From positions 1 to 54,372 of the forward strand of contig JAFSYY010000049.1 of the NCBI GenBank assembly GCA_017455845.1: 54,372 nt of DNA, read 5' to 3'. The notes beneath the pieces were generated by a model. It saw nothing but the letters and a program-made list of their open reading frames with translations, had not been told where the DNA came from and searched no databases. Numbering within the stretch: position 1 is the first letter of the stretch; the number at the start of each line of letters is the position of its first letter. The translations under genes and the position numbers were made by a program. Positions 4,040-34,184 of the stretch are shown piece by piece. The stretch comes from Prevotella sp. Lineage in GTDB: Bacteria > Bacteroidota > Bacteroidia > Bacteroidales > Bacteroidaceae.

Positions 4040-4231
4040 ATGAAAAAGACATATTCAAGCCCCGTTACCAACATCTTGATGCTCCACACCGTCAGTCATC
4101 TCATGGAGGGCAGCACCGTAGCCGGTACTACCGTCAAGGAAGAAAATGAAGCCAGTGCTGAGTACGACGTGCTGTCGCGCCTCCGCTCCGTCTGGGACGA
4201 CGAGGAAGAAAGCGAGGAGGCAGGATTCTAA
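4040..4231 (+). CDS. Small acidic peptide, MKK...WDDE family (63 aa)
   Basis: The ATG at 4040 has an AGGAG-type ribosome site about 10 bp upstream; a longer in-frame start at 3989 is unlikely. The peptide begins MKKTYSSPVTNIL, has an uncharged middle, and ends VLSRLRSVWDDEEESEEAGF. It shares MKKxYxxP, a Thr near position 17, (L/V)SR and W-D-D-E with three other peptides in this window (26408, 27831, 34014). Each of them lies directly downstream of a large exported protein with the common tail. There is no signal peptide, lipobox or membrane segment. It is followed by a strong terminator, so it is the last gene of a two-gene unit with 1780-3945. The function is unknown. A role as chaperone, regulator or modified peptide is possible but not shown by sequence. 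Confidence 0.82.
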   Translation: MKKTYSSPVTNILMLHTVSHLMEGSTVAGTTVKEENEASAEYDVLSRLRSVWDDEEESEEAGF

Positions 4232-4248
4232 CCTGCTTCATACAAACA

Positions 4249-4297
4249 AAAGACACACCAGCCTTTCCGTATTCATGCGGGAGGCTGGTGTGTCTTT
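4249..4297 (+). terminator. Strong intrinsic terminator after the 63-aa peptide gene
   Basis: A 16-bp perfect inverted repeat (4249-4264 with 4282-4297, AAAGACACACCAGCCT) closes over a 17-nt loop. It ends the 1780-4231 transcription unit. Confidence 0.85.
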
Positions 4298-4397
4298 CTG
4301 ATTGGAAACGTGCGGTGAGTAGCCCTTTTTTTTGTGTATTTGCACAAAATGAAAATACAATGAAACATTATCTAAAGCGTGTTTCATGGAATAATGT

Positions 4398-4405
4398 TAC
4401 CTTTG
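4398..4405 (+). promoter_or_regulatory. -7 element TACCTTTG before the 1260-aa exported protein
   Basis: TACCTTTG lies 50 bp before the ATG at 4456. The position argues for that start rather than the longer in-frame ATG at 4288, which lies upstream of the promoter. Confidence 0.55.
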
Positions 4406-4455
4406 CCGCAAATTTCAATCAATTAACAACATTATTAACCAAAAACAAATTTCAC

Positions 4456-7400
4456 ATGAGAAAATCTTTCCAAATGATTCTTGCACTTGTGCTGATGATG
4501 CTCGGTGCAGTGAATGTGAACGCTCAGGAGCGTGTGGCTATCACCGCCGACATGTTCCACAGTCACACTGAGGATGACTTCAGTGCCGACGCCGCAGACC
4601 TGGGTCCGCTGGAGACGGCCGCCTATATCATCGGCGAGGCCAGCAGTTGTCCTATCGGCGACACCAGTTGTAATGCCTGGGCCGACCTGGGCGACTATTC
4701 AAAGTTGTATGTGAAGATGGAAGGCTGCGATGCCGACGGCAACACCAACGGCTCGAACCCCCGTATCTTCATCAACCGTCTTGAGCATGAGGGCCAGTTT
4801 AATGCCGACAAGGCGCAGGCCAAGTGCCTGGTGATCCCCAATGCCGGCACATGGGCAGAGGACTTCTACACCAAGGAAGGCGACGATGAGTATGTCATCG
4901 ACCTGATTAAGATTAAGAAGGAGTTTGGCTTCGTGCACCTCCATTCCGTCAAGGGCTCCGCGTGGAACACGCAGGCTATTGTCTACAGCATCGAGGCCGA
5001 GAAGGCTAAGCCTTCGCAGCAGGTGGGCTGGGTGAACCTGATTAACAACAGCAGCATGGAAGGTGACGACGTGAGCAGTTTCTTCACGAAGTTGTCGCAG
5101 GGCGACCCCATGCCTTCTGTCATCTCCGACGGCGTCGGTGTTGATGGCAGCCGTGGTATCGTGGTAGAGGCTACTGCCAAGGCAGCCAACGCCTGGGACA
5201 ACCAGTTCTGGTTCCGCTTCAACGAGGATGTGGCCGCCGGTACGAAGTACCGTGTGTCGTTCGACTATCGTGCCGATGCCGATGCCAAGGCTTCTACGCA
5301 GGCACATGCCGAGCCCAGCGACTATATCTGGCATCAGATGCTGGGCGACGTGAACTTCACCAGCGAGTGGCAGACCTTCTCTGCCGAGGGCACCGTGAGT
5401 GCTGAGCAGGCCGAGGGTAAGAATGACGACGGCACTCCAAAGTACTTCCGTTCTGTTGCTTTCAACTTGAACGAGTTTGCTGATGCCAACAACTACTACT
5501 TCGACAACGTGAAGTTTGAGGTGTTCAAACTGGGTACCGTTGTAGAGTACAGTAATATTATTATAAAGGTGGACTTTGGCTTCGACACCAATGTTGCCCA
5601 GATGGTGGAAGCACTGGGCGGTGCCAAGCGTGTGTTCTTCACCGACAAGGGCTGCGCCAAGGTGAAGGTTAACGGCGAGGAGGCCGAGATCTATTCTGTG
5701 GAGGGTCTTGCCGACGGTCGCTTCTATATCTTCCTGACCGAGGCTCCCAGCGATGATGACGTTGTAGAGGTGGCCTTCACCAATACCATCGGTCTGACCT
5801 ATACCTCTGGCGTGAACGCCGGCTCTGCCGTAGGCGACTTCACGATGACCGCTACCTACAACTACGATGTGGAGAATGAGGAGGGTGCCTATCCCTATGA
5901 CGTGGTGATTCCTACGGTTATCAGCACCGATCCCGAGGACGGCTCGTTCAACCTGCCCACCAGCACCGTGTTCACCATCACCTTCGACAAGGAGGTTGAC
6001 TGCTCTGTCCTGGAGGCTACTGCCAACGGCAACGCCATGACCGTGAGCCCTTCTTCCGGCTATGCCAAGGAGGTGACCCTGAGCGGTTCGCTCTCCAATG
6101 GTGTCTGCACCATTAAGATTGACAAGATTGCCCCTGAGTTGAATATGCTTGAGAACTTCGGTTCCTACGAGTTCACCGTAAGCATCGGCAAGGTTGAGAT
6201 CGACCCGAACGACACGGAGGAGGTTCTCCTTACTAACGACTCCTTCGCTGCTTGCGCCGAGGGTGGCATCCCCGAAGGCTTCGAGGTGATGCAGGGCGAG
6301 GAGTTGCGCACTGCCGGCAACAGTTACAGCAGCGGCTCACGTATGTTCAACTTCGGCGAGGGTGGCGACTTCACCAAGGGTCTCTACTTCCGTGAGGGCT
6401 ACTGCCAGACCAATCCTCCTCTGACGATGAAGGCCGGCAAGCCTTATACCATCGCGTTCAACAGTTGTATGTGGAAAGACAATGGTGCTACGCTCGACCT
6501 GAAGGTGCTGGATGCTTTCGACCAGGAGGTGTTCAAGCAGACGGTCAACAACACCCCGAACGTGAACGGCAGCAAGAATGCCGTGAGCGGCAGTACCAGG
6601 ACCGAGGCTGTCTTTACGCCCGAGTCTGACGGCGACTACACCATCCGTTGGGACCGTCCCGGCTTCAACGAGGTTATCATTGCCAATGTGACGGTGAAGT
6701 ACGAGCCCAATGTTCCCGGCCTGAAGGAGATGCGTGCCCTGGAGGCTGCCATCGCTTCGGCCAAGGCTACCCTGGCTGCCAACGAGAATCCCCGCTATCA
6801 GGATGCTGAGTACAGCAACCTGCAGTCGGTCATCAGTTACTATGAGGGCTGGGAATCTACCTCTCCCTCTGCCTACGCCGAAGCCATCGCTGCCCTTAGC
6901 GAGGCTGCCAAGGCTCAGAACGACCACCACGCTAACTGCGACGAGTATGAGACACAGGTGAAGAAGGCTATCGACGTGGTTCGCCAGAACGAGATGCCTG
7001 ACGGTGATCCCGAGAAGGCTACCAAGTTTGTGACCACAGCCTTGTTCGGTCAACTGAAGGATGTCGTTGCCAAGTACCATGGTTCCTCTGAGTGGAGAAA
7101 CATGAACGAGGATCCCGAGGGCGAGGCCCAGTGGCAGTTGTTCTATGAGTTCGACGTGCTGATGAGCGAGGCCGAACTGGTTCCTGCCATTGCCGAACTG
7201 AAGGATATTGCCAACGTGACCAGCCTGCTGTTCACCCAGGGTCCCTCTGAGCCCGAGAACGCCAATGGCGGCAAGGGCACCGGTGTTGCCGTGCTCGTTG
7301 ACCGTCTGCGTCTGGGTGATGCTGCCCTGGCAGCCCTGGGCGTTCCCGAGACTGACACTGCCCGTGAGGCCTTCAAGAAAGCCCTTACCGACGATGACGC

Positions 7401-8238
7401 CTTGGCCGAGAAGATGAAGCGCCACATCAAGCGTGCACTCTACGGTGCGCTGAAGGATCCCGCCAACACTCTGTTTGAGGCACAGGTTAACGGTGAGACA
7501 CTGGAGGAGATTACTCCGACCTATGATATGACCGTGTTCGTGAAGAATCCTAACATCTACAAGCAGTTGCCCAACACAGACTTCACCGAGGAGAACGTTC
7601 CCGGCTGGACCACTCCCGAGGGCTACAACCGTCCGGGCCTGACAGTGGGCTGGGGTGCTGCAAAGAATATTGAAGGCGTGGCCGAGGACTGCATGTTCCA
7701 GACTTGGGGTGGCAGTTATCGCGTAGAGCAGACCATCGAAGACCTGCCTGCCGGTGTCTATAGCATCAGATTTGCCTTTGGCGAGCGCATGAGCGACGAC
7801 GAGAACAACTTTGCAGGCAGTTTCGCATTTGCTACTACCAGCAGTTACGACTATCTGTCTTCCGACGATGGAAATATTCCTGGTATCGGCCAGGCCTTCC
7901 CCTTCGCTTCAAACGACAGCCATGTATGTGTGCTTGAGGAGGTCGATGTTACCGACGGCAACCTGACCATCGGCGTTGAGGGCGGTTCTAGTTCTCATAC
8001 CTTCTTCAACGAGGTGCGCATCCTGCTGACGGCTCCCCTTGCCAAATTCGACTATGCCAAGGCCTTCGATGAGGTGTCGGCAGTGGAGACCGAGAGGATG
8101 ACACCTGCCAAGGTGCGCAGTCTGGAACTCTTCGACCTGAACGGCCGCCGCATGATGACAGCCCAGAAGGGTGTGCAGATTATGAAGAAGCACATGAGCG
8201 ACGGCTCTATCCGTGTGGAAAAAGTAGTAAAGAAGTGA
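4456..8238 (+). CDS. Large exported multidomain protein (CBM-like, Ig-like, helical), second tail class
   Basis: The start at 4456 gives a good signal peptide (MRKSFQMILALVLMMLGAVNVNAQ) and 1260 residues; the upstream in-frame ATG is not credible. Visible parts in order are: an N-terminal beta region; a CBM4/9-like region ('WVNLINNSSMEG', 'FRFNEDVAAGTKYRVSFDYRA'); a bacterial Ig-like domain with VISTDPEDGSFNLPTS and FDKEV; a jelly-roll-like module around residues 600-750 (SYSSGSRMFNFG); an Ala-rich helical region at about 760-830 resembling FIVAR repeats; and a C-terminal beta domain. The 600-750 module is also present in the esterase at 10191, which ties this protein to the glycan locus downstream. 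The end (LFDLNGRRMM...MSDGSIRVEKVVKK) is a variant tail shared with that esterase. No catalytic motif was recognised; glycan binding at the cell surface is the best guess. Confidence 0.75.
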   Translation: MRKSFQMILALVLMMLGAVNVNAQERVAITADMFHSHTEDDFSADAADLGPLETAAYIIGEASSCPIGDTSCNAWADLGDYSKLYVKMEGCDADGNTNGSNPRIFINRLEHEGQFNADKAQAKCLVIPNAGTWAEDFYTKEGDDEYVIDLIKIKKEFGFVHLHSVKGSAWNTQAIVYSIEAEKAKPSQQVGWVNLINNSSMEGDDVSSFFTKLSQGDPMPSVISDGVGVDGSRGIVVEATAKAANAWDNQFWFRFNEDVAAGTKYRVSFDYRADADAKASTQAHAEPSDYIWHQMLGDVNFTSEWQTFSAEGTVSAEQAEGKNDDGTPKYFRSVAFNLNEFADANNYYFDNVKFEVFKLGTVVEYSNIIIKVDFGFDTNVAQMVEALGGAKRVFFTDKGCAKVKVNGEEAEIYSVEGLADGRFYIFLTEAPSDDDVVEVAFTNTIGLTYTSGVNAGSAVGDFTMTATYNYDVENEEGAYPYDVVIPTVISTDPEDGSFNLPTSTVFTITFDKEVDCSVLEATANGNAMTVSPSSGYAKEVTLSGSLSNGVCTIKIDKIAPELNMLENFGSYEFTVSIGKVEIDPNDTEEVLLTNDSFAACAEGGIPEGFEVMQGEELRTAGNSYSSGSRMFNFGEGGDFTKGLYFREGYCQTNPPLTMKAGKPYTIAFNSCMWKDNGATLDLKVLDAFDQEVFKQTVNNTPNVNGSKNAVSGSTRTEAVFTPESDGDYTIRWDRPGFNEVIIANVTVKYEPNVPGLKEMRALEAAIASAKATLAANENPRYQDAEYSNLQSVISYYEGWESTSPSAYAEAIAALSEAAKAQNDHHANCDEYETQVKKAIDVVRQNEMPDGDPEKATKFVTTALFGQLKDVVAKYHGSSEWRNMNEDPEGEAQWQLFYEFDVLMSEAELVPAIAELKDIANVTSLLFTQGPSEPENANGGKGTGVAVLVDRLRLGDAALAALGVPETDTAREAFKKALTDDDALAEKMKRHIKRALYGALKDPANTLFEAQVNGETLEEITPTYDMTVFVKNPNIYKQLPNTDFTEENVPGWTTPEGYNRPGLTVGWGAAKNIEGVAEDCMFQTWGGSYRVEQTIEDLPAGVYSIRFAFGERMSDDENNFAGSFAFATTSSYDYLSSDDGNIPGIGQAFPFASNDSHVCVLEEVDVTDGNLTIGVEGGSSSHTFFNEVRILLTAPLAKFDYAKAFDEVSAVETERMTPAKVRSLELFDLNGRRMMTAQKGVQIMKKHMSDGSIRVEKVVKK

Positions 8239-8256
8239 TAACGAAACATTCTATAA

Positions 8257-8299
8257 AACAAACGAGACGTGGCACAGGGCTACGTCTCGTTTGTTTTTT
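8257..8299 (+). terminator. Strong intrinsic terminator after the 1260-aa gene
   Basis: A 14-bp perfect stem (8257-8270 with 8282-8295, AACAAACGAGACGT) is followed by a run of T. It separates the 4456 gene from the enzyme operon that begins at 8403. Confidence 0.9.
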
Positions 8300-8300
8300 G

Positions 8301-8308
8301 TAATTTTG
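8301..8308 (+). promoter_or_regulatory. -7 element TAATTTTG, candidate promoter of the glycan-enzyme operon
   Basis: TAATTTTG fits TAnnTTTG and lies directly after the terminator and before the first enzyme gene. No matching -33 element is clear, because the upstream bases belong to the terminator stem. The resulting 5' leader would contain the heptamer array at 8321-8383. Confidence 0.45.
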
Positions 8309-8320
8309 CACGGGGAAAAG

Positions 8321-8383
8321 AGTTGAGAGGCTTTAGTTGAGAGTTGAGAGGCTTTAGTTGAGAGTTGAGAGACTTTGGTTGAG
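8321..8383. repeat. Heptamer array (AGTTGAG/AGGCTTT), nine units, in the operon leader
   Basis: Nine 7-bp units run without a break. They form three 21-bp triplets of the pattern AGTTGAG-AGGCTTT-AGTTGAG. The array lies between the -7 element at 8301 and the start codon at 8403, so it would be transcribed as the 5' leader. Confidence 0.9.
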
Positions 8384-8402
8384 AAATAAAAACTTAAAGA
8401 TT

Positions 8403-10181
8403 ATGAGAATATTTACTACGAGTTTGTTGCTGATTGTTTTTTCTTTATGGTTCAGCCCGGCCGGGGCACAACAGCCCGCCGAGGCACAGCCCGGGGTGCA
8501 GCAGCCCGGCGAGGCACCGATAAAGAATCCCATGTTGTGGGCCGATGTGCCCGACCCAGACGTTATCCGTGTGGGCGACACGTTCTACCTGGTCTCTACC
8601 ACCATGCACCTCATGCCCGGTGCGCCCGTCATGGCCTCTAAGGACTTGAAGAACTGGGAGACCGTGGGCTATATCTTCGACCGCCTGACCGACTCGCCCA
8701 AATACGACCTTCCCCTTGAGAAGATAAGCAGCAAGTCTAATCATAATTCTCAATTCCCAATTCTCAACTCTCAATTCAGAAGTCTTGGCACCGTCTATGG
8801 CCGCGGACAGTGGGCCACGTCGCTGAAATATCACGACGGCAGGTTCTGGGCGCTGCTGGCTCCCAACGAGGCCGGTGCCATGGGCGACACGTATATCTTC
8901 ACAGCCGAGAAGGCCGAGGGGCCGTGGACCATCCACTCCCGCCTGCGCCATTTCCACGATGCTACGCTGTTCTTCGACGACGACGGCACGCCATACGTGT
9001 TCTTCGGCACGGGCGAGATGTGCCAGTTGACACGTGACCTGAAGGGCGTCGTGGAGGGCAGCCTGCGCCATTACTTCCAGCGCGAGGCCGACGAGCGCGG
9101 ACTGCTGGAGGGCACCCGTGTCGTCAAGCATAACGGCACGTACTACGCCCTGCTTATCAGTCATGTCTTCGCCCCAGGCCGCCACCGCCGTGAGGTGTGC
9201 TATCGCACCAAGGACCTCAACGCCACGTGGGAGAAGAGCACCATCCTGGAGAGCGACTTCGGCGGCTTCTCGTATCTGGCACAGGGTACCATCGTCGATA
9301 CCGAGGAGGGCGACTGGTATGGCATCATGTTCCAGGACCGCGGCGGCGTAGGCCGTGTGCTCACGCTGAGCCCTGTCCGCTGGATCGACGGCTGGCCTAT
9401 GCTGGGCGACGAAAGCGGCCGTGTGCCCGAGACCATGCGCCCCTATCGTAGCGGCATGCCCGAGACAAGTATCGTGCAAAGCGATGATTTTAGCCCCACC
9501 CCCAGCCCCTCCGCGGGAGGGGCTGGGGGTGGGGCTCTTAAAAAGTGCTGGCAGTGGAACCATAACCCCGTGGACGATGCGTGGAGCCTCACCGAGCGCC
9601 CCGGCTTCCTGCGCCTGAAGACCAGTCGCGTGGTGCCCAACCTCTACCTGGCTCCGAATACCCTGACGCAGCGTATGGAGGGTCCGGTGTGCAGCGGTGC
9701 CGTCTGCCTCGACCTGAGGAAGATGAAGGATGGCGACTGTGCTGGTCTGGCGGCCTTCAATGGCGACAGTGGCGTGCTCACGGTCAAGAGGCAGGGCAGG
9801 AAATATGTCCTGGAGATGAGCGAGCAGAGCGTCGCCCTCACTGAGCGTGAGAAGGCCGTGACCGGTGTAGAGGAAAAGGTTGTTGAAATGGTAGTCCTGC
9901 CCTCTCATCCCTCACCCCTCACCCCTCACCTCTACTTAAAGATCACCGGCGACTTCCAGCCCGGGCATCATGACGTGGCCAACTTCTATTATAGCCTCGA
10001 CGGTGACCACTGGACGCAGATAGGCACCAGGGACTACCGCATGATCTTCGACTATCGCCGCTTCTTCATGGGCACCAAGTTTGCCATCTTCAACTATGCC
10101 ACCAAGAAAGTTGGCGGCTATGTCGATGTGGACTATTTCGAGTATAAAAAATTAAAAAATAATTCTGATAACGATAATTAG
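8403..10181 (+). CDS. Glycoside hydrolase family 43 (beta-xylosidase/alpha-L-arabinofuranosidase type)
   Basis: The start at 8403 gives a signal peptide (MRIFTTSLLLIVFSLWFSPAGA) and 592 residues. The N-terminal five-bladed propeller has the GH43 acidic triad: Asp in VPDPDV (about residue 53), Asp in HDATLFFDDDG (about 187), and Glu in LLEGTRV (about 236). A C-terminal beta-sandwich follows (FNYATKKVGGYVDVDYFEY), as in xylan-active GH43 enzymes with an added sandwich domain. Xylosidase or arabinofuranosidase action on xylan side chains is the likely role. Three repeat inserts lie in frame: a heptamer array (8745-8779) in a propeller loop, a 45-bp GC palindrome (9492-9536) between domains, and another heptamer array (9904-9938) in the sandwich. 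A Gln/Pro-rich linker follows the signal peptide. It is the first gene of the operon and the next gene starts 9 bp later. Confidence 0.88.
   Translation: MRIFTTSLLLIVFSLWFSPAGAQQPAEAQPGVQQPGEAPIKNPMLWADVPDPDVIRVGDTFYLVSTTMHLMPGAPVMASKDLKNWETVGYIFDRLTDSPKYDLPLEKISSKSNHNSQFPILNSQFRSLGTVYGRGQWATSLKYHDGRFWALLAPNEAGAMGDTYIFTAEKAEGPWTIHSRLRHFHDATLFFDDDGTPYVFFGTGEMCQLTRDLKGVVEGSLRHYFQREADERGLLEGTRVVKHNGTYYALLISHVFAPGRHRREVCYRTKDLNATWEKSTILESDFGGFSYLAQGTIVDTEEGDWYGIMFQDRGGVGRVLTLSPVRWIDGWPMLGDESGRVPETMRPYRSGMPETSIVQSDDFSPTPSPSAGGAGGGALKKCWQWNHNPVDDAWSLTERPGFLRLKTSRVVPNLYLAPNTLTQRMEGPVCSGAVCLDLRKMKDGDCAGLAAFNGDSGVLTVKRQGRKYVLEMSEQSVALTEREKAVTGVEEKVVEMVVLPSHPSPLTPHLYLKITGDFQPGHHDVANFYYSLDGDHWTQIGTRDYRMIFDYRRFFMGTKFAIFNYATKKVGGYVDVDYFEYKKLKNNSDNDN
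8745..8779. repeat. In-frame heptamer array (AATTCTC), five units, in GH43
   Basis: Five 7-bp units based on AATTCTC run from 8745 to 8779 and encode Asn/Ser/Gln-rich residues that do not fit the GH43 fold around them. Confidence 0.85.
9492..9536. repeat. 45-bp perfect GC-rich palindrome inside GH43
   Basis: Two 21-bp arms (9492-9512 and 9516-9536) are perfectly complementary around a GCG loop. In frame it encodes a Pro/Ser then Gly/Ala stretch between the propeller and the C-terminal sandwich. Degenerate relatives occur at 12778-12805 and 45150-45164. It resembles a dispersed palindromic element tolerated in a linker. Confidence 0.9.
9904..9938. repeat. In-frame heptamer array (CTCACCC), about five units
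   Basis: Units CTCATCC, CTCACCC, CTCACCC, CTCACCT and CTACTTA follow each other in frame in the C-terminal sandwich of GH43. Confidence 0.75.
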
Positions 10182-10190
10182 AAAACGACA

Positions 10191-11972: not shown

Positions 11973-12028
11973 CGAAATGTCGAAATGTCGAGATGTCGAG
12001 ATGTCGAAATAACGAAATAACGAAATAA
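11973..12028. repeat. Octamer array (CGAAATGT/CGAAATAA), seven units, filling an intergenic gap
   Basis: Seven 8-bp units start on the base after the TAA stop of the esterase and end 9 bp before the GH97 start, so almost the whole intergenic space is array. Confidence 0.9.
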
Positions 12029-12037
12029 TAATCCAGA

Positions 12038-14047: not shown

Positions 14048-14079
14048 TTCATAGTTCATCGTTCTGACTATTAAGTAAT

Positions 14080-22200: not shown

Positions 22201-24246
<2,046 letters not shown>

Positions 24247-24387: not shown

Positions 24388-24393
24388 CCGCGA

Positions 24394-24695: not shown

Positions 24696-24726
24696 TACAT
24701 AAGTGTTCCAAGGAAGTTGCTTTCTT

Positions 24727-24866: not shown

Positions 24867-24893
24867 CACGCGAATAACCATAAATCGTAGTAG

Positions 24894-24960
24894 GTCACGC
24901 TTCCCAGCGTGACATCATCAGCCCGAGTCGTTCATGCTTCCCAGCACGCTGAAAGCGTGC
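24894..24960. repeat. Two adjacent perfect hairpins with CACGCT/AGCGTG stems
   Basis: GTCACGCT-TCCC-AGCGTGAC (24894-24913) and GCACGCT-GAA-AGCGTGC (24944-24960) are perfect stems with short loops. The string CTTCCCAGC occurs in both. They lie 76-142 bp before the start of the 25036 gene. The rest of 24247-25035, apart from the RNA and the MITE-like element, shows nothing clear. Confidence 0.7.
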
Positions 24961-25035
24961 CCCATCCCCGCAACAAGAACAACAAACAATCACATATACA
25001 ATTATTAATTAACAACTTATAGATTTAAAACGCTT

Positions 25036-26376
25036 ATGAAAAAATTTATTACTTTGCTCCTCGCCTTGGCGGGGATGGTGAGCACGGCAAGTGCAACAGA
25101 TTTTATAATATCTGGTAATCGTGCTATTGTGAATGGTGGTCATACAACTGATTTTTGGTGGGAAGACAATGGAAACTTGCTTACAGAGACAACTTCTAGT
25201 GGTATCTATACTTTGGTAGTTGAAGGTTGTTCATTAACTGCTAACACAGATTATGGCTTTAAAGTAAAGGTAAACGAGAATGCATGGAATGACGGTACCA
25301 CTTTTCCTAGTGATGAATATAGAGTTAATGTTCCATATGATGGAACTTATACACTAATTTACTTTGTTGATATAGATAATAAGGGAATTCGTGTTATCGC
25401 TACCCCTATGTTACGCTGGAGTCTGGGTAATTCTGGTAATGGAAATTGGAATTGGTTGTATGATAGCAGTGCATTTTTTACTAAGAAAGGTGATTTTAGT
25501 TGGACATTTGAGGTCAAATCGGATGATTATACTTCAGACTTCTCTTTTAGGCTTTATTCAGCCATATTCAAGAAATCTGCATATCCTGCTAGTCAGGACT
25601 TAGTTTTAAATTATGGTGATGTGGCTTCCACATCTGCTTACTTTAATACTGCAGAAAGCACTAACTATTCATGGAAATTGACAAAGCCTTCTTATGATTT
25701 TGAGAAAGTTATAATCACTGCCGTTTATAATCCCTTTGCAACCAATGATGGTACATGGAAAGTCTCTGCCGATGCCTACATCTCCAAGACCGTATCAGCC
25801 ACTTACGACTACGCCACCTTTGGTACTTCCGTTCCCGTTGACCTCTCTGGCGTTGCTGCCGAAGGCGTGACTGCCTATTCCGTGACCGCCAATGCCACTA
25901 CCGGCAAGGTTACGAAGACGGAGAAGACCGACGTGCTGGCTGCTAACAAAGGTGTGCTTCTGGAGAACTTAACGAATGCTGATATTACCCTGAGCCTCCC
26001 TGTGTCAGCCGAAGCCGGTGGCAATGAGACTAACGACATGATTGCCTTCACTGGCGGTTCTGAAAAATTATCTCAGACCTCCAAAGAAGATAATAATAAC
26101 TATACCCACTATATTCTTGCGAATGAATCCGCTGGCGTTGGTTTTTATAAAGTGTACAGTGAAGGTAACTCTATGGGCACCAACACTGCATACCTGAAAG
26201 TTCTGACCAGTGTTGATGCTGCCCGCTCGTTCCTGTGGTTCGACGAGTCCACAGGTATTAATGCTGTTGAGAAAGCCAAGATTGACGGCGAGGCTTACAA
26301 TCTGGCAGGTCAGCGCGTGACCAACCCCACGAAGGGCCTCTATATCGTAAATGGCAAAAAAGTAATCAAGAATTAA
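25036..26376 (+). CDS. Exported protein with conserved C-terminal module and K-G-L-Y-I tail
   Basis: This 446-aa protein has a signal peptide (MKKFITLLLALAGMVSTASA). Residues 20-245 contain two aromatic-rich, repeat-like beta units (DFIISGNRAIVNGG; LRWSLGNSGNGNWNW), which suggest carbohydrate-binding or E-set folds. No enzyme motif is visible. From about residue 250 the common module appears: AYSVTAN, NKGVLLEN, GVGFYKVYSEG, AYLKVLTS, ARSFLWFDESTGIN, then YNLAGQRV and KGLYIVNGKKVIKN. Base use changes within the gene: the first ~700 bp are AT-rich, while the module from about 25760 is GC-richer and close to its counterparts. A 53-aa peptide gene follows 31 bp downstream. Surface exposure is likely and the role is unknown. 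Confidence 0.78.
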   Translation: MKKFITLLLALAGMVSTASATDFIISGNRAIVNGGHTTDFWWEDNGNLLTETTSSGIYTLVVEGCSLTANTDYGFKVKVNENAWNDGTTFPSDEYRVNVPYDGTYTLIYFVDIDNKGIRVIATPMLRWSLGNSGNGNWNWLYDSSAFFTKKGDFSWTFEVKSDDYTSDFSFRLYSAIFKKSAYPASQDLVLNYGDVASTSAYFNTAESTNYSWKLTKPSYDFEKVIITAVYNPFATNDGTWKVSADAYISKTVSATYDYATFGTSVPVDLSGVAAEGVTAYSVTANATTGKVTKTEKTDVLAANKGVLLENLTNADITLSLPVSAEAGGNETNDMIAFTGGSEKLSQTSKEDNNNYTHYILANESAGVGFYKVYSEGNSMGTNTAYLKVLTSVDAARSFLWFDESTGINAVEKAKIDGEAYNLAGQRVTNPTKGLYIVNGKKVIKN

Positions 26377-26407
26377 TGTATCAATAAAAAAGAAAGGAAA
26401 ACGAAAT

Positions 26408-26569
26408 ATGAAAAAGAATTATATTGCACCTGTCACAATGACTGTGGTGGTGAAAACTGAAGCCCTGCTGGGCAGTAACAGCACTGGATATCTTCGCAAC
26501 GCCGAGGCTAGCAGCACTTCTGTAGGTCTCTCCCGCGAAGGCGGTAGTTCTTGGGACGACGAAGACTAG
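26408..26569 (+). CDS. Small acidic peptide, MKK...WDDE family (53 aa)
   Basis: The start ATG at 26408 is preceded by GGAAAACG-type purine-rich sequence. The peptide begins MKKNYIAPVTMTVVVKTEALLG and ends VGLSREGGSSWDDED. It matches the other three peptides at MKKxYxxP, Thr17, the hydrophobic pair at 20-21, LSR and WDDE. It is too short for many gene callers. It lies 31 bp after the 25036 gene and before a hairpin terminator (26657), so the two genes form one unit. There is no signal peptide and no cysteine. Function unknown. Confidence 0.8.
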   Translation: MKKNYIAPVTMTVVVKTEALLGSNSTGYLRNAEASSTSVGLSREGGSSWDDED

Positions 26570-26656
26570 AGATATCCCCGAGTTGTGAAACTCCGGCTTT
26601 TAATCATTTAATTAGTTTTTTCATCCGTAAGGGTGAATACGCAAAGTTTTAATGAC

Positions 26657-26692
26657 GTAAGCGGCTGACCGTGAGGTTAGCCGCTTACTTTG
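26657..26692 (+). terminator. Hairpin terminator after the 53-aa peptide gene
   Basis: GTAAGCGGCT (26657-26666) pairs perfectly with AGCCGCTTAC (26679-26688), followed by a short T-rich stretch. Confidence 0.75.
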
Positions 26693-26770
26693 TTTCCTAA
26701 ATTCCGCAATAGCAGACCACATTAGTTGATGATAAAAGACAACTATGACAACAAAGGACAACCTTAGGTG

Positions 26771-27712: not shown

Positions 27713-27747
27713 CGTCTGAAATAATATGAATGGTGCACTCTTGGATG

Positions 27748-27778
27748 CAAAGATACAAATAAAGAACCGAACCGCCAA
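27748..27778 (-). promoter_or_regulatory. Promoter of the Rpn-type gene
   Basis: On the minus strand TTG (27776-27778) is followed after 20 bp by TATCTTTG (27748-27755), 35 bp before ATG 27712. The box and the TTGGCGGTT context resemble the promoter at 1400-1431. Confidence 0.7.
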
Positions 27779-27830
27779 GCGATTCGGTGAATATTTTTGT
27801 TAGAAGGTCGAAAAACGATGACCAAGCAGG

Positions 27831-28010
27831 TTAGTCTTCATCGTCCCAGAGGCTGAAACGTGACAAATTATTGTCCACGTCGTTAGTAGTGCCTGTGAAG
27901 TCACTCTGTACTGGACTTGCACCAGTTACATCCAGTGGCGAATTGGCTACCATGTTAGCAGTTCTGACGGCAACCATTGCCATCGCGGGTGTCACATATA
28001 TCTTTTTCAT
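27831..28010 (-). CDS. Small acidic peptide, MKK...WDDE family (59 aa)
   Basis: The ATG at 28010 gives MKKIYVTPAMAMVAVRTANM; an in-frame ATG at 28031 would add only MFKKKKI and is less likely. The end is NNLSRFSLWDDED. The gene lies 182 bp downstream of the 28193-30421 gene on the same strand, the same order as the other three pairs. The intervening 28011-28192 holds repeated CACGAATT-type words and octamers of GAATTAGA (28085-28108), with no other gene. Function unknown. Confidence 0.8.
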   Translation of the reverse strand: MKKIYVTPAMAMVAVRTANMVANSPLDVTGASPVQSDFTGTTNDVDNNLSRFSLWDDED

Positions 28011-28192
28011 AATCTTTTTCTTTTTAAACACGAATTACCATTAATTGACCATGAATTTCATCATGAATGATTTTGTTTATCACGAATTAGAGAATTAGAG
28101 AATTCTGACTATTGATGTTTGAATGATAATCTTAAATTACTGCAAGCACTCGTGGGTCTTCGACAAATCTCGCAAATTCGTGATAGATAATT

Positions 28193-30421
28193 TTACTTGA
28201 TTACTTTCTTGCCGTTCACGATGTACAGGCCCTTCTTCAATTGTGAATTGTGAATTGAGAATCGTGAATTAACCCTGCGGCCCTGCAGGTCGTAGACCTC
28301 ATTATGCATTATGCATTGTGAATTATGCATTGAAGAGATGCCTGCTGTCTCGTCAAAGAACCAGATGAACTCACGTGCACCGGCTACAGCATCTGCGGGC
28401 AGATAGGCAGAGTGAGCACGCACGGTGAAGTTATTATTGTTCTTATAGAATCCAAGACCTTTACTGCCTTTCTTCAGCACGAAGATGGTATTTGCATCCA
28501 TCGGAGTATCTACGGTAACACCCTCAAGCAGGCTGGTTCCTGTACCTGTCGTGACAACAGGGATATTGGTGGTTACACCGCTCACCAGCAGACCAGTATG
28601 TGCGGGAACGGCACCTGTCACCTGGGTGAATATCACGGCATCGCCATCCTTGCTTGCTGTATAGGCCGTCAATGCAGTTATACCCGTGAAATCAAGTGCG
28701 TTATCTGAATAATAAGTGGCCCAACCGACAGAAGTGATGGTTATTTCTTCTTTAACAGAGGTACAATATCCACCATAAGTTGGTACGGGTGCTATATATT
28801 TGTAGAATTTGGGAACAAAGGCATTGTCTGTATTTGTGTATCCACGGAAGTCTTGATTATTATAGATACTTAAGTATCTCGTTGTGTAATTATCCTTTGT
28901 ACAAAGATAATCATTATTATTAATCTTCCAGAGTTTTCTATTACCTGTTCCTACTCTTATGTTATTATTGCTGCCAGAACTTGTTGTTGTGTTGCAATAA
29001 AGCCAATGAGTGGCATCCCCACTTGGATAAAAGGTATATCCATCGGTTGCATTACCGCTTACTTTCCATTTTAAACTATCTGCTACTTCTGAAGTAATCT
29101 TTCTGTTAGCGACTGTAATGGATACTGGTGTCGGAGGATTTGAACCACCCTGGTCATTGTTCATTGCATAAGTGCCATTTGAAATAACAAAAACATCAGT
29201 TGTTGTCATGGAAGTGAGTGCTGCTTCCTCCCAACTCTCAGTAGTATAACTTACAATTTTAGCCAAAACAGCATAGTAGATGATGTCTGTTGTACTTGTG
29301 GCAGATGTCACGTAGTTGGCACTGGGATCTGAATCTGTTGGCGTGTCGATCTTGTTGGCCTCAACAACCCATCCCAGGAAAGAATAGCCAGCAGGGATAC
29401 CAGACTCTGGTGCAGCAAACGAAATGGGCTCTCCGTCCTCAACCAAAACAGATGTCGTCGAACCATTAACATTGTAAGTAATGGTGTGCCTTACAATCTC
29501 CTCGAAACTGGCACGGAATGCCACTGCACTTGTTACTTCGTATGTGGTACCTTCGCCGTCATTCCATCCTGCATTTGCGGCATTATATTCCCATTTAGTC
29601 AGTCTATAGTCTTCATTGGCTGGAGTTGCCACTATTGTCAATACAGTGCCGTCAGAGACTTCTGTGCCACTCGCTATAGGCTCTTCGCCATTCTTAACAA
29701 CAAGAGTACCATTGCTGGGAGCAGAGAACGTTACGGCATATTTGGCAACGGCGGCAGCCTGCGTAATGGTCACGTCTTTGGTAGCATCGCCATAGGTAAG
29801 TGTCACTACGGCTTCACGAGAGTTCTCCGTATCAGTATTCTCTGTTGCAGTGAACGCCACTTTGCCATTTTCAGCATCAACAGCCCCAACGGTCAACCAG
29901 TCGCCCGATTTCTTCGTGGCAGTTAATGTGCTTCCATCTGGATTCGTTATGCTATAACTGATATTGCCTGACAAAACGTCGGCAGCAATATTTACGTCTT
30001 CTGAGTTAATTGAAGGGGCAGAAGGAGTGTAGGTGACAACAACTTTTGTTAATCTAACTTGACCACCTGAAGTGTTAAAAACGACAGAAGAGGTGTTTCC
30101 CGTCCAAGTATCATTGGAAATACTCCCATTCTCGCCACTTTTCAAGGTAAGTGTATTTTGGCTATAAGTAAAGACAATTTTAGAAATATTACCTACTTCT
30201 GAACTCACCGTCAGAGTCGCTCCAGAATAGATTCTATAATTATCCGAACGAGAAAATATTCCACTACTTGCAGTAAGAGAAATACCGTTTTTAGTTAATG
30301 TTGTTGTATTACTAGTCTCAACGTTAACAGTAAAGGTAACGTCTGCCGCCCACACACTCGCGCTTCCCACTACGAGGGCGCATAGCAGGAGCATTGTTTT
30401 TAAAAAGTAAAGTTTTTTCAT
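28193..30421 (-). CDS. Exported protein with BACON-like and InlB-type repeats and conserved tail
   Basis: This 742-aa protein has a signal peptide (LLLCALVVGSASVWA). After an N-terminal beta domain comes a BACON-like domain (about 140-225: SGDWLTVGAV ... VTLTYGDATKDVTITQ). InlB/Listeria-Bacteroides-type repeats follow (about 230-395: HTITYNVNG, GYSFLGWVVEAN), then an AT-rich segment with a lectin-like look. The common module ends it: VGWATYYSDNALDFTG, HTGLLVSG, GLGFYKNN, AREFIWFFDETAGI, YDLQGRRV, KGLYIVNGKKVIK. Two heptamer arrays (28239-28273 and 28301-28335) lie in frame between the module and the tail. It is probably surface exposed; no enzymatic motif was recognised. Its peptide partner lies downstream at 27831-28010. 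Confidence 0.8.
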   Translation of the reverse strand: MKKLYFLKTMLLLCALVVGSASVWAADVTFTVNVETSNTTTLTKNGISLTASSGIFSRSDNYRIYSGATLTVSSEVGNISKIVFTYSQNTLTLKSGENGSISNDTWTGNTSSVVFNTSGGQVRLTKVVVTYTPSAPSINSEDVNIAADVLSGNISYSITNPDGSTLTATKKSGDWLTVGAVDAENGKVAFTATENTDTENSREAVVTLTYGDATKDVTITQAAAVAKYAVTFSAPSNGTLVVKNGEEPIASGTEVSDGTVLTIVATPANEDYRLTKWEYNAANAGWNDGEGTTYEVTSAVAFRASFEEIVRHTITYNVNGSTTSVLVEDGEPISFAAPESGIPAGYSFLGWVVEANKIDTPTDSDPSANYVTSATSTTDIIYYAVLAKIVSYTTESWEEAALTSMTTTDVFVISNGTYAMNNDQGGSNPPTPVSITVANRKITSEVADSLKWKVSGNATDGYTFYPSGDATHWLYCNTTTSSGSNNNIRVGTGNRKLWKINNNDYLCTKDNYTTRYLSIYNNQDFRGYTNTDNAFVPKFYKYIAPVPTYGGYCTSVKEEITITSVGWATYYSDNALDFTGITALTAYTASKDGDAVIFTQVTGAVPAHTGLLVSGVTTNIPVVTTGTGTSLLEGVTVDTPMDANTIFVLKKGSKGLGFYKNNNNFTVRAHSAYLPADAVAGAREFIWFFDETAGISSMHNSQCIMHNEVYDLQGRRVNSRFSIHNSQLKKGLYIVNGKKVIK
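28239..28335. repeat. Two in-frame heptamer arrays in the tail region of the 742-aa protein
   Basis: AATTGTG-type units fill 28239-28273 (five) and ATTATGC-type units fill 28301-28335 (five). The second array is the exact reverse complement of 33857-33891, which has the same place in the 914-aa gene. Confidence 0.9.
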
Positions 30422-30525
30422 AATGTTTTTATTTATAAGGATTATAAGTCTTCTGTCCGGCAGGGGCTGACGTTCCCCCCACGTGTATTAAGCATCATCC
30501 GCGAGTCTTTTCGCGAACATGGGTG

Positions 30526-30557
30526 CAAAGTTACACACTTATTTTGTATTGACCAAA
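30526..30557 (-). promoter_or_regulatory. Promoter of the 742-aa exported protein gene
   Basis: On the minus strand TTTG (30554-30557) is followed after 20 bp by TAACTTTG (30526-30533). The leader would be about 98 nt, with a CGCG...CGCG hairpin. The neighbouring 30558-30912 is AT-rich with one small CCGCC-TCA-GGCGG hairpin (30679-30691) and no supported gene. Confidence 0.78.
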
Positions 30558-30912
30558 GAAAACGCCGAAAAAGTTACTTGTTACTCCCAAAAGCCTCCAA
30601 AAGCCTATATCCTCGCATTTTCAATCTTATGGTTGATTTTTATCTGTTTAATTTTGAATTGAATTCTGTTGGATTTCTCCGCCTCAGGCGGACGAACACA
30701 AAGGAGAATACCATGAGTCAACTGTTTGTTTGTTGGGGTCGCTACGCTCAAAATTAACCAAAATCTGATTCGAAAATTATCATAGTTGCGCATGTTACAA
30801 TATTTTTCTTTTCAATTTTCCTGTAATTTTTAATCATTACTAAATAAAGTTAAAATCGGGGCGTCGCTCTTATTTTTTTATTCTCCCGTACCATTATTTC
30901 ACATAAAATCAG

Positions 30913-30920
30913 TAACTTTG
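30913..30920 (+). promoter_or_regulatory. -7 element TAACTTTG of the 30927-31148 leader
   Basis: TAACTTTG fits the consensus and is followed by GCACCC, as at the promoter facing the other way (30526). The -33 element is weak. Transcription would start near 30927, about 307 nt before the ATG at 31234. Confidence 0.6.
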
Positions 30921-30926
30921 CACCCG

Positions 30927-31148
30927 TGTTTTTCGACGAGCCAAGCGGCCTTAGGGTCGGGCGTAGTATGAGGCACGCTATTTTTTAATTGCTCAATTCT
31001 CTGCCGAACTGCGACCTCGAAAGAGATTTTTACGAGCGAAATCAATATACCGTTGAAGTTGCGCATTGTGCGCAGACTTCATCCATAGGTATATTGAGGC
31101 TGTCGCAGGCCTTGGCAGAGGTATGGCTGGGTCTGCGCTTTTTTGTGT
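30927..31148 (+). ncRNA. Structured leader RNA with alternative pairings (attenuator-like or 6S-like)
   Basis: A long hairpin is plain in the sequence. CTCTGCC (30999-31005) pairs with GGCAGAG (31114-31120), and CTGCGAC (31009-31015) with GTCGCAG (31102-31108). TCAATATACC (31042-31051) pairs with GGTATATTGA (31088-31097), GAAGT (31055) with ACTTC (31076), and GCGCA (31061) with TGCGC (31069). A side hairpin CTCG/CGAG (31016-31036) sits in a bulge. GCAGA (31115-31119) can instead pair with TCTGC (31132-31136) just before six T residues, which would break the closing stem. A rod with a side bulge recalls 6S RNA, and the alternative pairing recalls a riboswitch-like attenuator for the 31234 gene. 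No known class was recognised. Confidence 0.55.
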
Positions 31149-31233
31149 TCCTACGCTCCAGGTGCTCCCCCCCTATATATAATAATGTATATACATATTT
31201 ATTATAACTCAATATTAACTAAAACGAATTAAA

Positions 31234-33978
31234 ATGAAAAAGAAAATCTTTACTCTTTTAACGCTCATGCTAGCAGTATGCAGCGGGGCGTGGGCAGACA
31301 CAGCCATCATCAGTCCTGCCAACATGACATCACAGTCAAGTGGTACATTGGAAAGCACTGTTGCCGGAAATGTATGGTATGGTAATGGTACTAACCTTGA
31401 AACGGGATTTATTATTCAGATTACAGGCAACCTTGGGAAAGCACTTTCAAATCAAAGTACAGTTACTGTTAATAGTAATAGTTACAGTTCTTTCAAAAAT
31501 AGTAACGGAGCTCAGATGACATTAACGCTGCCGTCAGGCTACAAAGCTAAGTCGGTGACATTCTACGTAACAACTAATGCTGATGATGATGCCAATCTGA
31601 GTGAAATCAACGGAACGTCTTGCTCTGATGTAGTGACATCACATAAGGATGGTACCAATCCCACAGTTATTACAAAGGAATTAAGCCGTGTTAATTCGTT
31701 TACCTTTACTTTCTCTACAAAACAGGTATTCTTCGTGGCAGTAGTGGACTATCAGTTGCCTGTACCCGACATCACCACCCAACCCGTTTCTGCTACTTAT
31801 CAGAAGGACGCAACGGCAACGGCCCTGACAGTGGTTGCCACCGCCTCTGCTGGCGACTTGTCCTACCAGTGGTACAGCTGCGACGATGCAAATAAATCAA
31901 ATGCCGCAGTCATCAATGGCGAGACGAGTTCCTCTTATACTCCTTCAACTGCTACTGTTGGCACCTTCTACTATTTCTGCCGTGTAGCCGACACAAACGG
32001 CACGACGGACTCCAACGTTGCTACAATTTCCGTATCCGAAGCATCGGTTCCTACCATTAGCATAGTAGCCTCTGCCACAACAGTCTATGTCGGTAATGCT
32101 GTCAATTTGACCGCTACTGTTAGTGGTGTTCCTACTCCAACTATTCAGTGGTACAGTTGCACGGATGCAGAAAAGACAAATCCCGCCGCCATCGACGGAG
32201 CCATCAATGAGACCTACGCCCCCTCTACCACCACAGAAGGGACATATTACTACTACGCCGTAGCCACCAACAGCGAGGGTAGTGCAACCTCTGATGTTAT
32301 CACGCTTACTGTGAACCCGCTCTACACCGTGACTTTCTCACTCGGTGACGCAACGGGCGTGACGGGTACGGTTCCATCCGCAGTAGAGGTGGAGTCGGCA
32401 GTGACATTGCCCACCAACCAGACGCTCTATAAGGAAGGCTATACGCTGACGGGGTGGAACGACGGCACAACCACTTATGCAGCCGGAGCTTCTGCAACGA
32501 TTACTGCCAATACAACAATGACAGCTGTGTTCACCGCTAACACAGTTGATCTGGGTGTATGCCCTGCCACAATCACTTGGCAGTTCCAGACTGGACAAGG
32601 TGCTCCGGCATGGTCGCATCAAGGAGATGCTGCCTTCCCCTACGTGGCCCAGATGGCTCTTGGCAGCGAGACCATTGACATGGCTCTGACGATGGATGCA
32701 AGCGATGGAAAGATTGCCAATGCTAACTGGACTGACTGGAGCCAGATGAACGGAGGAACAAAACTTACTGCGCCCGTTGTGAAGGGTGCCGTGCTGAAAC
32801 TGTATGTATATGGCGAAGGCAGTACACCCGTCACATTTAACGGCACTGCCGGCACTTACAGTTCAAACATCTATTCCTATACAGCCACGGCTGCCGACGG
32901 AACGACAGGCAGTGTGGAAATCGTTATCGGCGACCAGTCTTATACCAAGTATCTTACAGTCGAATATCCCACAGTGGGCGTAAAGGTCTATGACTATGCT
33001 ACGTCAGTAGGTAATGGAACGGTTGGAAACAGCGATCAGGTTTCCATTGCAGAGCAATCAATCAATGGAACAAAGGTCAATGTCATCAAGTTTAATTCAT
33101 CCTTGAGCAGTGATAAGGCAACCAACTATTGGAAGATAACTCCCGCTGCAGGCAAATTCCAGAAGGGCGACCGTGTCATCTGGACGGGTTGCTACAGCAA
33201 TAGTAGCACTAAGACAACTACCATCGCCATTTACGATGACGATGCCATCAGCAGTGCCATAGTGACGGGTGAGAGTTTTGCCAACGTGAATGGTGGCTCA
33301 GCATCAAGTCCAAAGTCGCTGACAACCGGCTACTTCACTCTTAGTGCCGACGCAGAGGCCCTCTATATCGGGCGCAGCGGTGGTACTGCCACCTATCTGA
33401 CGGCTCTTACAGTGGTTCGCGAGAATGCTACCATCAAGCCTGCCCATAACAAGTCGACCTATGTCGCAAGTACGGCTCTTGATTTCAGCGGTGTTGCTGG
33501 TCTGAAGGCATATAGGGCATCTGACGCATCAGCAGGTAAGGTAACGCTTGACGAAGTGACCACAGTTCCCGCCGGTACTCCATTACTTCTCATTGGAACG
33601 GCTGATACGGAGTATAGTGTACCTGCTCTTGAGACAGCAGATGCAATCGGCACAAACCTCCTCGTTGCTGGTGACGGCTCGACTGAGTTCGATGGCACGA
33701 CCTACGACTATATCCTCTACAGCGACGGTCTGTTCTACCAGATTGGCAGCGGAAGCGTTGCAGTAGGCAAGGCTTATCTGCACTGCGAGAGCGACCCGAC
33801 GGCTGCTGGCTCACGCAGCCTGGCAATCAGTTTCGGCGATGAGACCACAGGCATCTCTTCAATGCATAATTCACAATGCATAATGCATAATGAGATCTAC
33901 AACCTGAGCGGCCAGCGCGTCGGCCAGCCTGTGAAGGGCCTGTACATCGTGAACGGCAAAAAGGTTTTGGTGAAATAA
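31234..33978 (+). CDS. Exported protein with Ig-like and InlB-type repeats and conserved tail
   Basis: This 914-aa protein has a signal peptide (MKKKIFTLLTLMLAVCSGAWA). After an N-terminal beta domain come two Ig-like domains (about 175-375: LSYQWYSCDDA ... YYFCRVADTNG; IQWYSCTDAE ... YYYYAVATNSEG). An InlB-type repeat (YTLTGWNDGTTTYAAG, about 380-440) and further beta domains follow. The C-terminal module has STALDFSGVAGLKAY, PAGTPLLLIG, GLFYQIGSG and AYLHCESD, then TTGISSMHNS, YNLSGQRV and KGLYIVNGKKVLVK. An in-frame heptamer array (33857-33891) precedes the tail. It is likely surface located and may bind glycans or proteins. It is preceded by a long structured leader and followed 35 bp later by a 56-aa peptide gene. 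Confidence 0.8.
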   Translation: MKKKIFTLLTLMLAVCSGAWADTAIISPANMTSQSSGTLESTVAGNVWYGNGTNLETGFIIQITGNLGKALSNQSTVTVNSNSYSSFKNSNGAQMTLTLPSGYKAKSVTFYVTTNADDDANLSEINGTSCSDVVTSHKDGTNPTVITKELSRVNSFTFTFSTKQVFFVAVVDYQLPVPDITTQPVSATYQKDATATALTVVATASAGDLSYQWYSCDDANKSNAAVINGETSSSYTPSTATVGTFYYFCRVADTNGTTDSNVATISVSEASVPTISIVASATTVYVGNAVNLTATVSGVPTPTIQWYSCTDAEKTNPAAIDGAINETYAPSTTTEGTYYYYAVATNSEGSATSDVITLTVNPLYTVTFSLGDATGVTGTVPSAVEVESAVTLPTNQTLYKEGYTLTGWNDGTTTYAAGASATITANTTMTAVFTANTVDLGVCPATITWQFQTGQGAPAWSHQGDAAFPYVAQMALGSETIDMALTMDASDGKIANANWTDWSQMNGGTKLTAPVVKGAVLKLYVYGEGSTPVTFNGTAGTYSSNIYSYTATAADGTTGSVEIVIGDQSYTKYLTVEYPTVGVKVYDYATSVGNGTVGNSDQVSIAEQSINGTKVNVIKFNSSLSSDKATNYWKITPAAGKFQKGDRVIWTGCYSNSSTKTTTIAIYDDDAISSAIVTGESFANVNGGSASSPKSLTTGYFTLSADAEALYIGRSGGTATYLTALTVVRENATIKPAHNKSTYVASTALDFSGVAGLKAYRASDASAGKVTLDEVTTVPAGTPLLLIGTADTEYSVPALETADAIGTNLLVAGDGSTEFDGTTYDYILYSDGLFYQIGSGSVAVGKAYLHCESDPTAAGSRSLAISFGDETTGISSMHNSQCIMHNEIYNLSGQRVGQPVKGLYIVNGKKVLVK
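33857..33891. repeat. In-frame heptamer array (GCATAAT), five units, identical to one at 28301-28335
   Basis: The 35 bp are the exact reverse complement of 28301-28335 and take the same place before the tail in a divergent relative. Confidence 0.9.
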
Positions 33979-34013
33979 TCAATAATAAAAAAGTAAAGAA
34001 AGGAACAACGATT

Positions 34014-34184
34014 ATGAAAAAGCAATATATCAATCCCGTACTGACAGTTATCAACGTCCAAACGCAGCAGATGATTGCTGAGTCCGCCGGCTTCGGCTCT
34101 GGCACAAAGGGCGGTGGCGAGGCCGTCTCACGTCGTGGCTACAACGTCTGGGACGACGAAGATGAATTTGACAGTGAAGAATAG
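34014..34184 (+). CDS. Small acidic peptide, MKK...WDDE family (56 aa)
   Basis: The ATG at 34014 follows an AAAGGAACAACG ribosome site. The peptide begins MKKQYINPVLTVINVQTQQM and ends AVSRRGYNVWDDEDEFDSEE, with a Gly-rich middle. It shares MKKxYxxP, Thr17, the hydrophobic pair, (L/V)SR and WDDED with the peptides at 4040, 26408 and 27831. It lies 35 bp after the 914-aa exported protein gene and before the terminator at 34275. No transport signal or cysteine is present. Function unknown. Confidence 0.82.
   Translation: MKKQYINPVLTVINVQTQQMIAESAGFGSGTKGGGEAVSRRGYNVWDDEDEFDSEE

Follow-up and report, generated by a model that had tools for sequence, protein, structure and literature searches.

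Four very short genes in a 54,372-nt stretch of Prevotella sp. DNA (contig JAFSYY010000049.1 of assembly GCA_017455845.1; this whole stretch is called the window here) raise a simple question: what does a peptide of 53 to 63 residues do behind the gene for a large exported protein? A preliminary description had placed four open reading frames (ORFs) in the window. All four are there and read MKKxYxxP ... SR ... WDDE, and next to each, upstream and on the same strand, lies the gene of an exported tail-bearing protein, as had also been stated (4/4). Our answer, to which we give a probability of roughly 0.63, is that these are dispersed precursors of ribosomally synthesized and post-translationally modified peptides (RiPPs) resembling the linear polyphosphorylated peptides (LPPs) of Bacillota, such as those of the lpp cluster of Paenibacillus alginolyticus, matured in trans and each serving its own exported protein. 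The peptide genes and their partners are:

4040..4231, + strand: peptide 1, 63 aa, putative YxxP leader, candidate acceptor Ser25, WDDEEE end
26408..26569, + strand: peptide 2, 53 aa, putative YxxP leader, candidate acceptor Ser23/Ser25, WDDED end
27831..28010, - strand: peptide 3, 59 aa, putative YxxP leader, candidate acceptor Ser24, WDDED end
34014..34184, + strand: peptide 4, 56 aa, putative YxxP leader, candidate acceptor Ser24, WDDEDE end
1780..3945, + strand: partner of peptide 1, exported 721-aa protein; C-terminal domain ~3433-3840 (103.8 bits), tail 3853-3942
25036..26376, + strand: partner of peptide 2, exported 446-aa protein; C-terminal domain ~25864-26270 (68.0 bits), tail 26287-26370
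28193..30421, - strand: partner of peptide 3, exported 742-aa protein with a BACON domain; C-terminal domain ~28304-28705 (84.5 bits), tail 28196-28303
31234..33978, + strand: partner of peptide 4, exported 914-aa protein with Ig-like domains; C-terminal domain ~33466-33880 (84.8 bits), tail 33889-33975

The window partners end in Y-[DN]-L-x-G-[RQ]-R-V ... G-[LI]-Y ... GKK (signal peptides were judged by eye), and the gaps ahead of peptides 1-4 are 94, 31, 182 and 35 nt. No fold was recognised for the C-terminal domain of the partners; the AlphaFold2 model of 25804-26373, from the partner of peptide 2, has a mean predicted local distance difference test score of 80.8.

A profile built from the window's four peptides finds 20 copies in the host genome, each at E <= 8.1e-7 (the assembly is incomplete: 2.43 Mb, 124 contigs, 68% complete), and a divergent extra peptide lies behind a tail gene at locus L240. 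The ORFs show coding-like selection, with a ratio of non-synonymous to synonymous polymorphism (pN/pS) of 0.35 in 8 close pairs. Among 93 peptides that were not picked via the WDDE pattern, the WDDE end that holds for the window's four is found in only 17, and the rule is a Trp within the last 22 residues (91/93); a Thr near position 17, also thought to be shared, is not general (Thr at Tyr+12 in 34/93). The median gap from cargo to peptide is 32 nt, and the two genes overlap in 2 of 93 cases. A feature that had been missed is a Ser at Tyr+18 to Tyr+21, present in 136 of 137 collected peptides (+19 in 104, +20 in 23, +21 in 7, +18 in 2 and none in 1), the chance of a Ser in four positions being ~37% at 10.9% Ser content; Ala or Cys stands two residues ahead of it in 95 of the 136. 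YxxP is found in 137/137, partly by construction, as the peptides were located via the motif or a motif-containing profile. Nor do the middles differ completely, as had been claimed: they form families that track the C-terminal domain of the partner.

The pairing extends well beyond the window. In the host genome, all 17 peptides with a visible upstream gene sit behind a tail gene (three more, at L015, L017 and L020, are at contig edges without one), an outcome with a chance of ~1e-26 if the genome has 2,000 genes (an assumed number), 59 of them tail genes. Counting the pairing in further genomes had been proposed as a check. At E <= 1e-4, peptide matches are found in 74 of 151 genomes and 15 of 30 genera of a family-level sample, with a median of 2 peptides per positive genome and at least 10 in 5 genomes; an order-level sample gives matches in 5 of 295 genomes, three of these in one other family. 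From the best matches and the listed matches, mostly in peptide-rich genomes, 60 stretches were fetched, in which a regular expression recognises a regular tail gene upstream of 93 of 106 distinct peptides and a variant tail is found for 3 more; the 106 are peptides with an ORF no farther than 600 nt upstream, and loci at which the expression missed the peptide (including L057, L070, L077 and L093) do not enter the count. The 13 without a regular tail are L061, L065, L080, L087, L098, L110, L115, L117, L142, L145, L162, L163 and L166; the variant tail is upstream at L080, L098 and L145, and the domain discussed below is upstream at L166 and downstream at L162.

An independent scan of one genome each of 84,980 species, using a DNA pattern blind to tails, gave 47 matches, 46 of which are in frame; the record titles read Prevotella, Prevotellaceae, Bacteroidaceae or Bacteroidales throughout, and the term Prevotella-type used below is based on them. 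Three of the 46 are at contig edges without an upstream ORF, and a tail gene is upstream in 41 of the 43 assessable cases: 37 by the expression (of which L217 is the variant type by eye), two by eye (L201, and L234 of the rumen commensal Prevotella communis E15-14) and two variant (L195, L219), with none at L225 and L232. Some peptides recur across records (L189/L212, L211/L233). The variant cargo tail, of DGKYLIDGKIVIVKNGVKYSANGQKLN type and with the peptide behind it, is seen at L080, L098, L145, L195, L217 and L219. Two tandem peptides behind one domain-bearing cargo were observed at L157 and in genome G373 (C1:1155054-1155340). A second class of short YxxP peptides (e.g. MKKQYQSPxMKVV...) lies beside lipoprotein genes rather than tail genes, at L087, L097, L117 and L163.

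Peptide and exported protein had been taken for a two-component unit. That much is strongly supported, but what determines the pairing is a domain of ~130 residues before the tail, and not the tail. A profile of these residues was trained on 109 paired genes of other genomes only and applied to 59 host tail genes (E <= 3.5e-4, out of 73 hits at E <= 1): at a 25-bit cut-off, a peptide follows 18 of 23 domain-bearing tail genes versus 0 of 36 others. The domain score of paired host tail genes has a median of 84.5 bits (range 48.3-109) against 0.6 for unpaired ones (p = 3.7e-9). In G437 the peptide is behind 19 of 22 tail genes with the full domain versus 0 of 17 without, in G373 behind 13 of 30 versus 0 of 41, and in G298 behind 0 of 1 versus 0 of 4. 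Pooled over the four genomes, this makes 50 of 76 domain-bearing tail genes versus 0 of 98 lacking the full domain, the 98 including 15 rows with a partial match. Seen from the peptides, 33 of 35 in G437 and G373 (E <= 0.02; matches above this value were not used in counts of this type) are behind the domain, and one weak candidate is behind a domain fragment (G437 C11:142877, E 0.049). Two genomes without Sov, a component of the type IX secretion system (T9SS), have neither the domain nor a credible peptide. One gene in the window is an exception:

39650..42964, + strand: domain-bearing tail protein (55.6 bits), no peptide in 420 nt downstream

The middles of the peptides co-vary with this domain. 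For 126 gene pairs, between-genome similarities of middle and domain correlate at r 0.235, against 0.112 +- 0.012 when partners are shuffled within genomes (0/500 shuffles reach the observed value), and this holds where the partner bodies show no similarity (0/500). The middle does not co-vary with the tail (202/500 shuffles reach), and its correlation with the body is gone where domains are dissimilar (173/500). For example, peptides with a GIxYGGVDxxGxxxP middle are found in two GTDB families, behind related ~400-residue partners where enough partner sequence is available. Under co-inheritance or contact alike, the unit is a 3' cassette of domain, tail and peptide. In a separate observation, repeats reading SMHNSQCIMHNE or NSxFxIHNSQLKKG are inserted in tail regions (window 28196-28400, - strand, and ~33830-33975, + strand; L173, L177); they look like a short DNA repeat that entered coding sequence in frame.

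What could act on such peptides? In the LPP cluster, according to the available part of PMC13381572, the LppA precursor has the leader YxxPxVLxHQxIxFETxxS; LppB is a RiPP recognition element (RRE) whose N33, Y60 and D70 contact Pro and Tyr of the leader (crystal structure 9x8z); LppK phosphorylates Ser3 of a core starting A-Q-S; and LppS, an archaeal-type signal-peptidase-like protein, cuts the leader off, aided by LppB. Each of six peptide-bearing genomes that we looked at has one RRE of the PqqD family, and in 6/6 its gene is adjacent to genes for an HprK-like kinase and a signal-peptidase-like protein; all three genes are found in 24 of 25 other-genome loci taken as best kinase matches. The host RRE scores 58.7 bits against PF05402 (cut-off 23.4). 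LppB N33, Y60 and D70 align with an Asn, a Tyr and an Asp that are invariant in 6/6 RREs (alignment E 0.05; chain numbering differs from that of the paper by 18, a value fitted on N33, V35, C39, Y60 and D70). Against PDB, the RRE profile matches 9x8z at E 0.05 and the lasso RRE 6jx3 at 7e-4. The best informative family of the kinase is TIGR04352 (16-37 bits in 3/3 proteins, below the cut-off of 200), with a P-loop SGTGKST invariant in 6/6. The protease matches TIGR02228 at 35.8 bits in L325 and 15.3 bits in the host (cut-off 51.85); its host residues Ser40, His78 and Asp93 are invariant in 6/6 and were paired with S29/H68/D93 of LppS by motif only, and its model is nearest to LexA, the lambda repressor C-domain and type I signal peptidases (S24/S26 folds). 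The likeness suggests, by analogy, that the cassette may work like LPP maturation.

What ties the peptides to the cassette is circumstantial evidence. In the family-level sample the kinase is found in 122 of 151 genomes and in 71 of the 74 peptide-positive ones (p = 2e-6; confounded by phylogeny). Where a genome has Sov as well as the kinase, peptides are found in 67 of 99 cases; with Sov but no kinase the count is 3 of 11, with the kinase but no Sov 4 of 23, and with neither 0 of 18, counts that are likewise confounded by phylogeny. PorM is present in three of the four peptide genomes that have the kinase but lack Sov. The host precursors are dispersed, with none inside the host cassette locus, L321. 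A profile of T9SS-paired peptides was run over 20 kinase loci, which come from other genomes or are paralogous copies; 11 of them contain a candidate precursor no more than 6 kb from the kinase block, versus 1 of 36 control loci. The sole control match is the L240 peptide, which also follows a tail gene with the domain; other PqqD loci have candidates in 0 of 2. Among the candidates, that at L378 is of the T9SS type and those at L359, L365, L368 and L372 directly precede a large lipoprotein gene (by eye).

Cassette surroundings vary. An ABC transporter is encoded in L325, L363 and L367, and NTP_transf_5 in L325 and L363. Capsule-type surroundings (chain-length tyrosine-kinase family) were recognised by Pfam in L372 and L373 and by eye in L359, L360, L368 and L374, and all six of these loci hold candidate YxxP precursors. 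At L361:5269-9163, an RRE-kinase-protease cassette comes with a 148-aa Cys-containing YxxP candidate, behind which a radical SAM protein is encoded (PF04055, 1.1e-21). The RREs of peptide-free controls are elsewhere: beside a gene resembling the major facilitator superfamily in G302 (by eye), and in a lasso-type cluster in G165, a same-family genome without a credible peptide (L328:4319-6858, with Asn_synthase, Transglut_core3 and PqqD). In Prevotella-type genomes the cassette is headed by a secreted-looking protein of ~135-205 aa (MFGxxxSFxDS ... DSxW, by eye), unassigned to a family, encoded at:

L321:8746-9150, - strand: cassette-heading protein
L322:7947-8501, - strand: cassette-heading protein
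L323:8465-8905, - strand: cassette-heading protein
L326:4947-5441, + strand: cassette-heading protein
L377:6784-7398, - strand: cassette-heading protein

From the peptides, their pairing with the domain, the middle-domain co-variation, the co-occurrence of peptides and cassette and the conservation of leader-binding residues in the RRE, all of which were computed, we infer how the cassette would act on the peptides. Cargo and peptide would be produced from neighbouring genes. The N-terminal ~21 residues of the peptide (MKKxYxxP...[ML][IL]) would be a leader, gripped at the Tyr and Pro of YxxP by the discrete PqqD-family RRE of a cassette whose genes stand at one other place in the genome. The RRE would present the precursor to the HprK-like kinase for phosphorylation of the near-invariant Ser (~Ser24), and the signal-peptidase-like serine protease would cut the leader off near [IL]-A-x-S, a site modelled on LppA. 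The freed core, probably A-x-S followed by the variable middle, often [SA]R and the Trp-acidic end, would be exported and partner the protein of the upstream gene through direct contact with the ~130-residue domain ahead of the T9SS-like tail, serving as bound ligand, cofactor or assembly aid; that the matured peptide binds this domain is suggested by pairing and co-variation. Precursors spread over the genome, 20 of them in the host, would share this single cassette, while each belongs to a cargo of its own. Of the four functions offered by the preliminary description, we judge the modified peptide to be the best, while a dedicated chaperone, a secretion partner and a regulator are possible roles.

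Several observations weigh against this reading. The full LPP leader consensus is unmatched, HQ and FET being absent from the position counts, and the Ser of the peptides is mostly one or two residues farther from the Tyr than the +18 of LPP. The family assignments of kinase and protease, made from sequence, are below curated cut-offs. Among the 14 ORFs of the 14-kb host locus L321, Pfam recognises no transporter, NTP-transferase or lasso enzyme, and because the host cassette locus has no transporter among these 14 ORFs, export is unaccounted for. Of 77 genomes in which no peptide was detected, 51 also have the kinase, and 3 of the 74 peptide-positive genomes have no kinase match (both confounded by phylogeny). 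Counted per ORF, candidate precursors near the kinase are 11 of 1030 versus 1 of 374 in controls (p = 0.20, or 0.04 once L240 is set aside and the other PqqD loci are added; p = 0.33 for the five strongest candidates), and for six of the 11, E per 10,000 ORFs is 0.01 or higher; as this comparison is weak, we use these candidates as supporting evidence. In G373, 17 of 30 domain genes have no peptide, and none was found behind the five that were read directly. The middle also correlates with the partner body (r 0.205, 0/500), leader and C-terminal end correlate weakly with some parts (10 to 18/500 shuffles reach at best), and no peptide is more like its own partner than like others. Finally, the middle-domain co-variation could reflect co-inheritance of the 3' cassette, which would explain it as well as contact does.

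The same evidence can be arranged differently. An unmodified cytosolic peptide might bind the C-terminal domain of the cargo after translation and keep it export-competent, as a dedicated chaperone in cells without SecB. Gene order, short gaps, co-variation with the domain and the lack of a signal peptide (by eye) would all agree with this, and the SecB profile is absent in 7 of 8 genomes; however, SecB is also missing from the peptide-free genome G302, and a chaperone leaves unexplained both the YxxP leader with its Ser and the similar leaders near kinase/RRE loci beside lipoprotein genes, so that we regard it as unlikely. We are a little more sceptical of LPP-like RiPPs with a role of their own, such as signal or antimicrobial, for which the cargo gene would be a convenient promoter or a linked hitchhiker. 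The cassette and leader evidence fits these too, and linkage by itself can yield co-variation, but peptides are restricted to domain-bearing tail genes (0/98 others) and the middle-domain co-variation persists when bodies differ.

More distant are two other explanations. Regulatory or decaying 3' ORFs without a role at the protein level would naturally be small, variable and 3' of the cargo gene; a pN/pS of 0.35 and detection in 74 of 151 family genomes and in a second family make this improbable. Lasso peptide precursors, which also have a YxxP leader and PqqD, are brought to mind by a sub-threshold match of peptide 4 to the lasso leader model and by the matches of the RRE profile to lasso B1 proteins in PDB. 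Yet a Pfam scan of the 14 ORFs of L321 and of 10 flanking ORFs of L322 and L323 finds no Asn_synthase or Transglut_core3 (these were not searched genome-wide), and the lasso-type cluster that was seen belongs to G165, without a credible peptide; we consider the lasso explanation very improbable.

Maturation of dispersed LPP-like precursors is the reading we prefer, and it would fit into a larger picture: a genome-wide system of Bacteroidota that gives surface proteins private phosphorylated peptide cofactors or ligands, from one RRE/kinase/protease cassette and dispersed precursors, each core matched to a co-encoded T9SS cargo domain or, among relatives of these bacteria, to a large lipoprotein encoded nearby. 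This picture is tentative, and we would not bet on it in full. A literature search found no publication on these peptides. The results suggest that some bacterial surface proteins would own a processed peptide partner, and many small ORFs of Prevotella-type bacteria from gut and rumen would thereby acquire a meaning. An LPP-kind precursor tied to a definite exported-protein domain would also turn LPP function into a binding and display experiment.

Among known systems, the type A sorting signal of T9SS (TIGR04183, PF18962) has a similar C-terminal G-R-V ... G-x-Y ... K tail, and the host encodes the machinery, with Sov (PF14349, 2.9e-204) and PorM/GldM (PF12080, 1.7e-34). In contrast to type A, the window tails are under the model cut-offs (best 13.2 bits, type A model cut-off 23) and an extra ~130-residue domain marks the peptide partners; among 126 domains with tails, 9 match TIGR04183 at E <= 0.1 (best 1.3e-4) and 3 match PF18962 (best 8.9e-5). 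The GG-leader RiPPs of Bacteroidales with PCAT exporters are likewise small RiPP precursors in the same order, but, in the part of PMC10352776 available, they have a GG leader and a C39 peptidase where the peptides here have a YxxP leader and an S26-like protease. Phosphorylated lasso peptides of the paeninodin type share the RRE, the HprK-like kinase and the logic of leader recognition (PMC13381572, as far as available), but no macrolactam cyclase or B2 protease lies beside the cassettes scanned here.

With LPP the likeness includes the YxxP leader, the variable remainder, a Ser soon after the leader, a discrete RRE, an HprK-like kinase and an archaeal-type signal-peptidase-like protease, and some related loci here also have NTP_transf_5, an ABC transporter or capsule genes (L372, L373). 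We have not filed the system as LPP, because the full leader consensus is not found in the peptides, nor an in-cluster precursor, a transporter or an NTP-transferase in the host locus. According to PMC13381572, LPPs occur in Bacillota only and their biological role is unknown; the paper's main text contains no word starting with 'bacteroid'. Unlike LPP, the system described here is in Bacteroidota, has scattered precursors behind exported-protein genes and a Trp-acidic end; with it, LPP-like maturation would reach past Bacillota and type IX cargo would gain a peptide partner that had not been foreseen.

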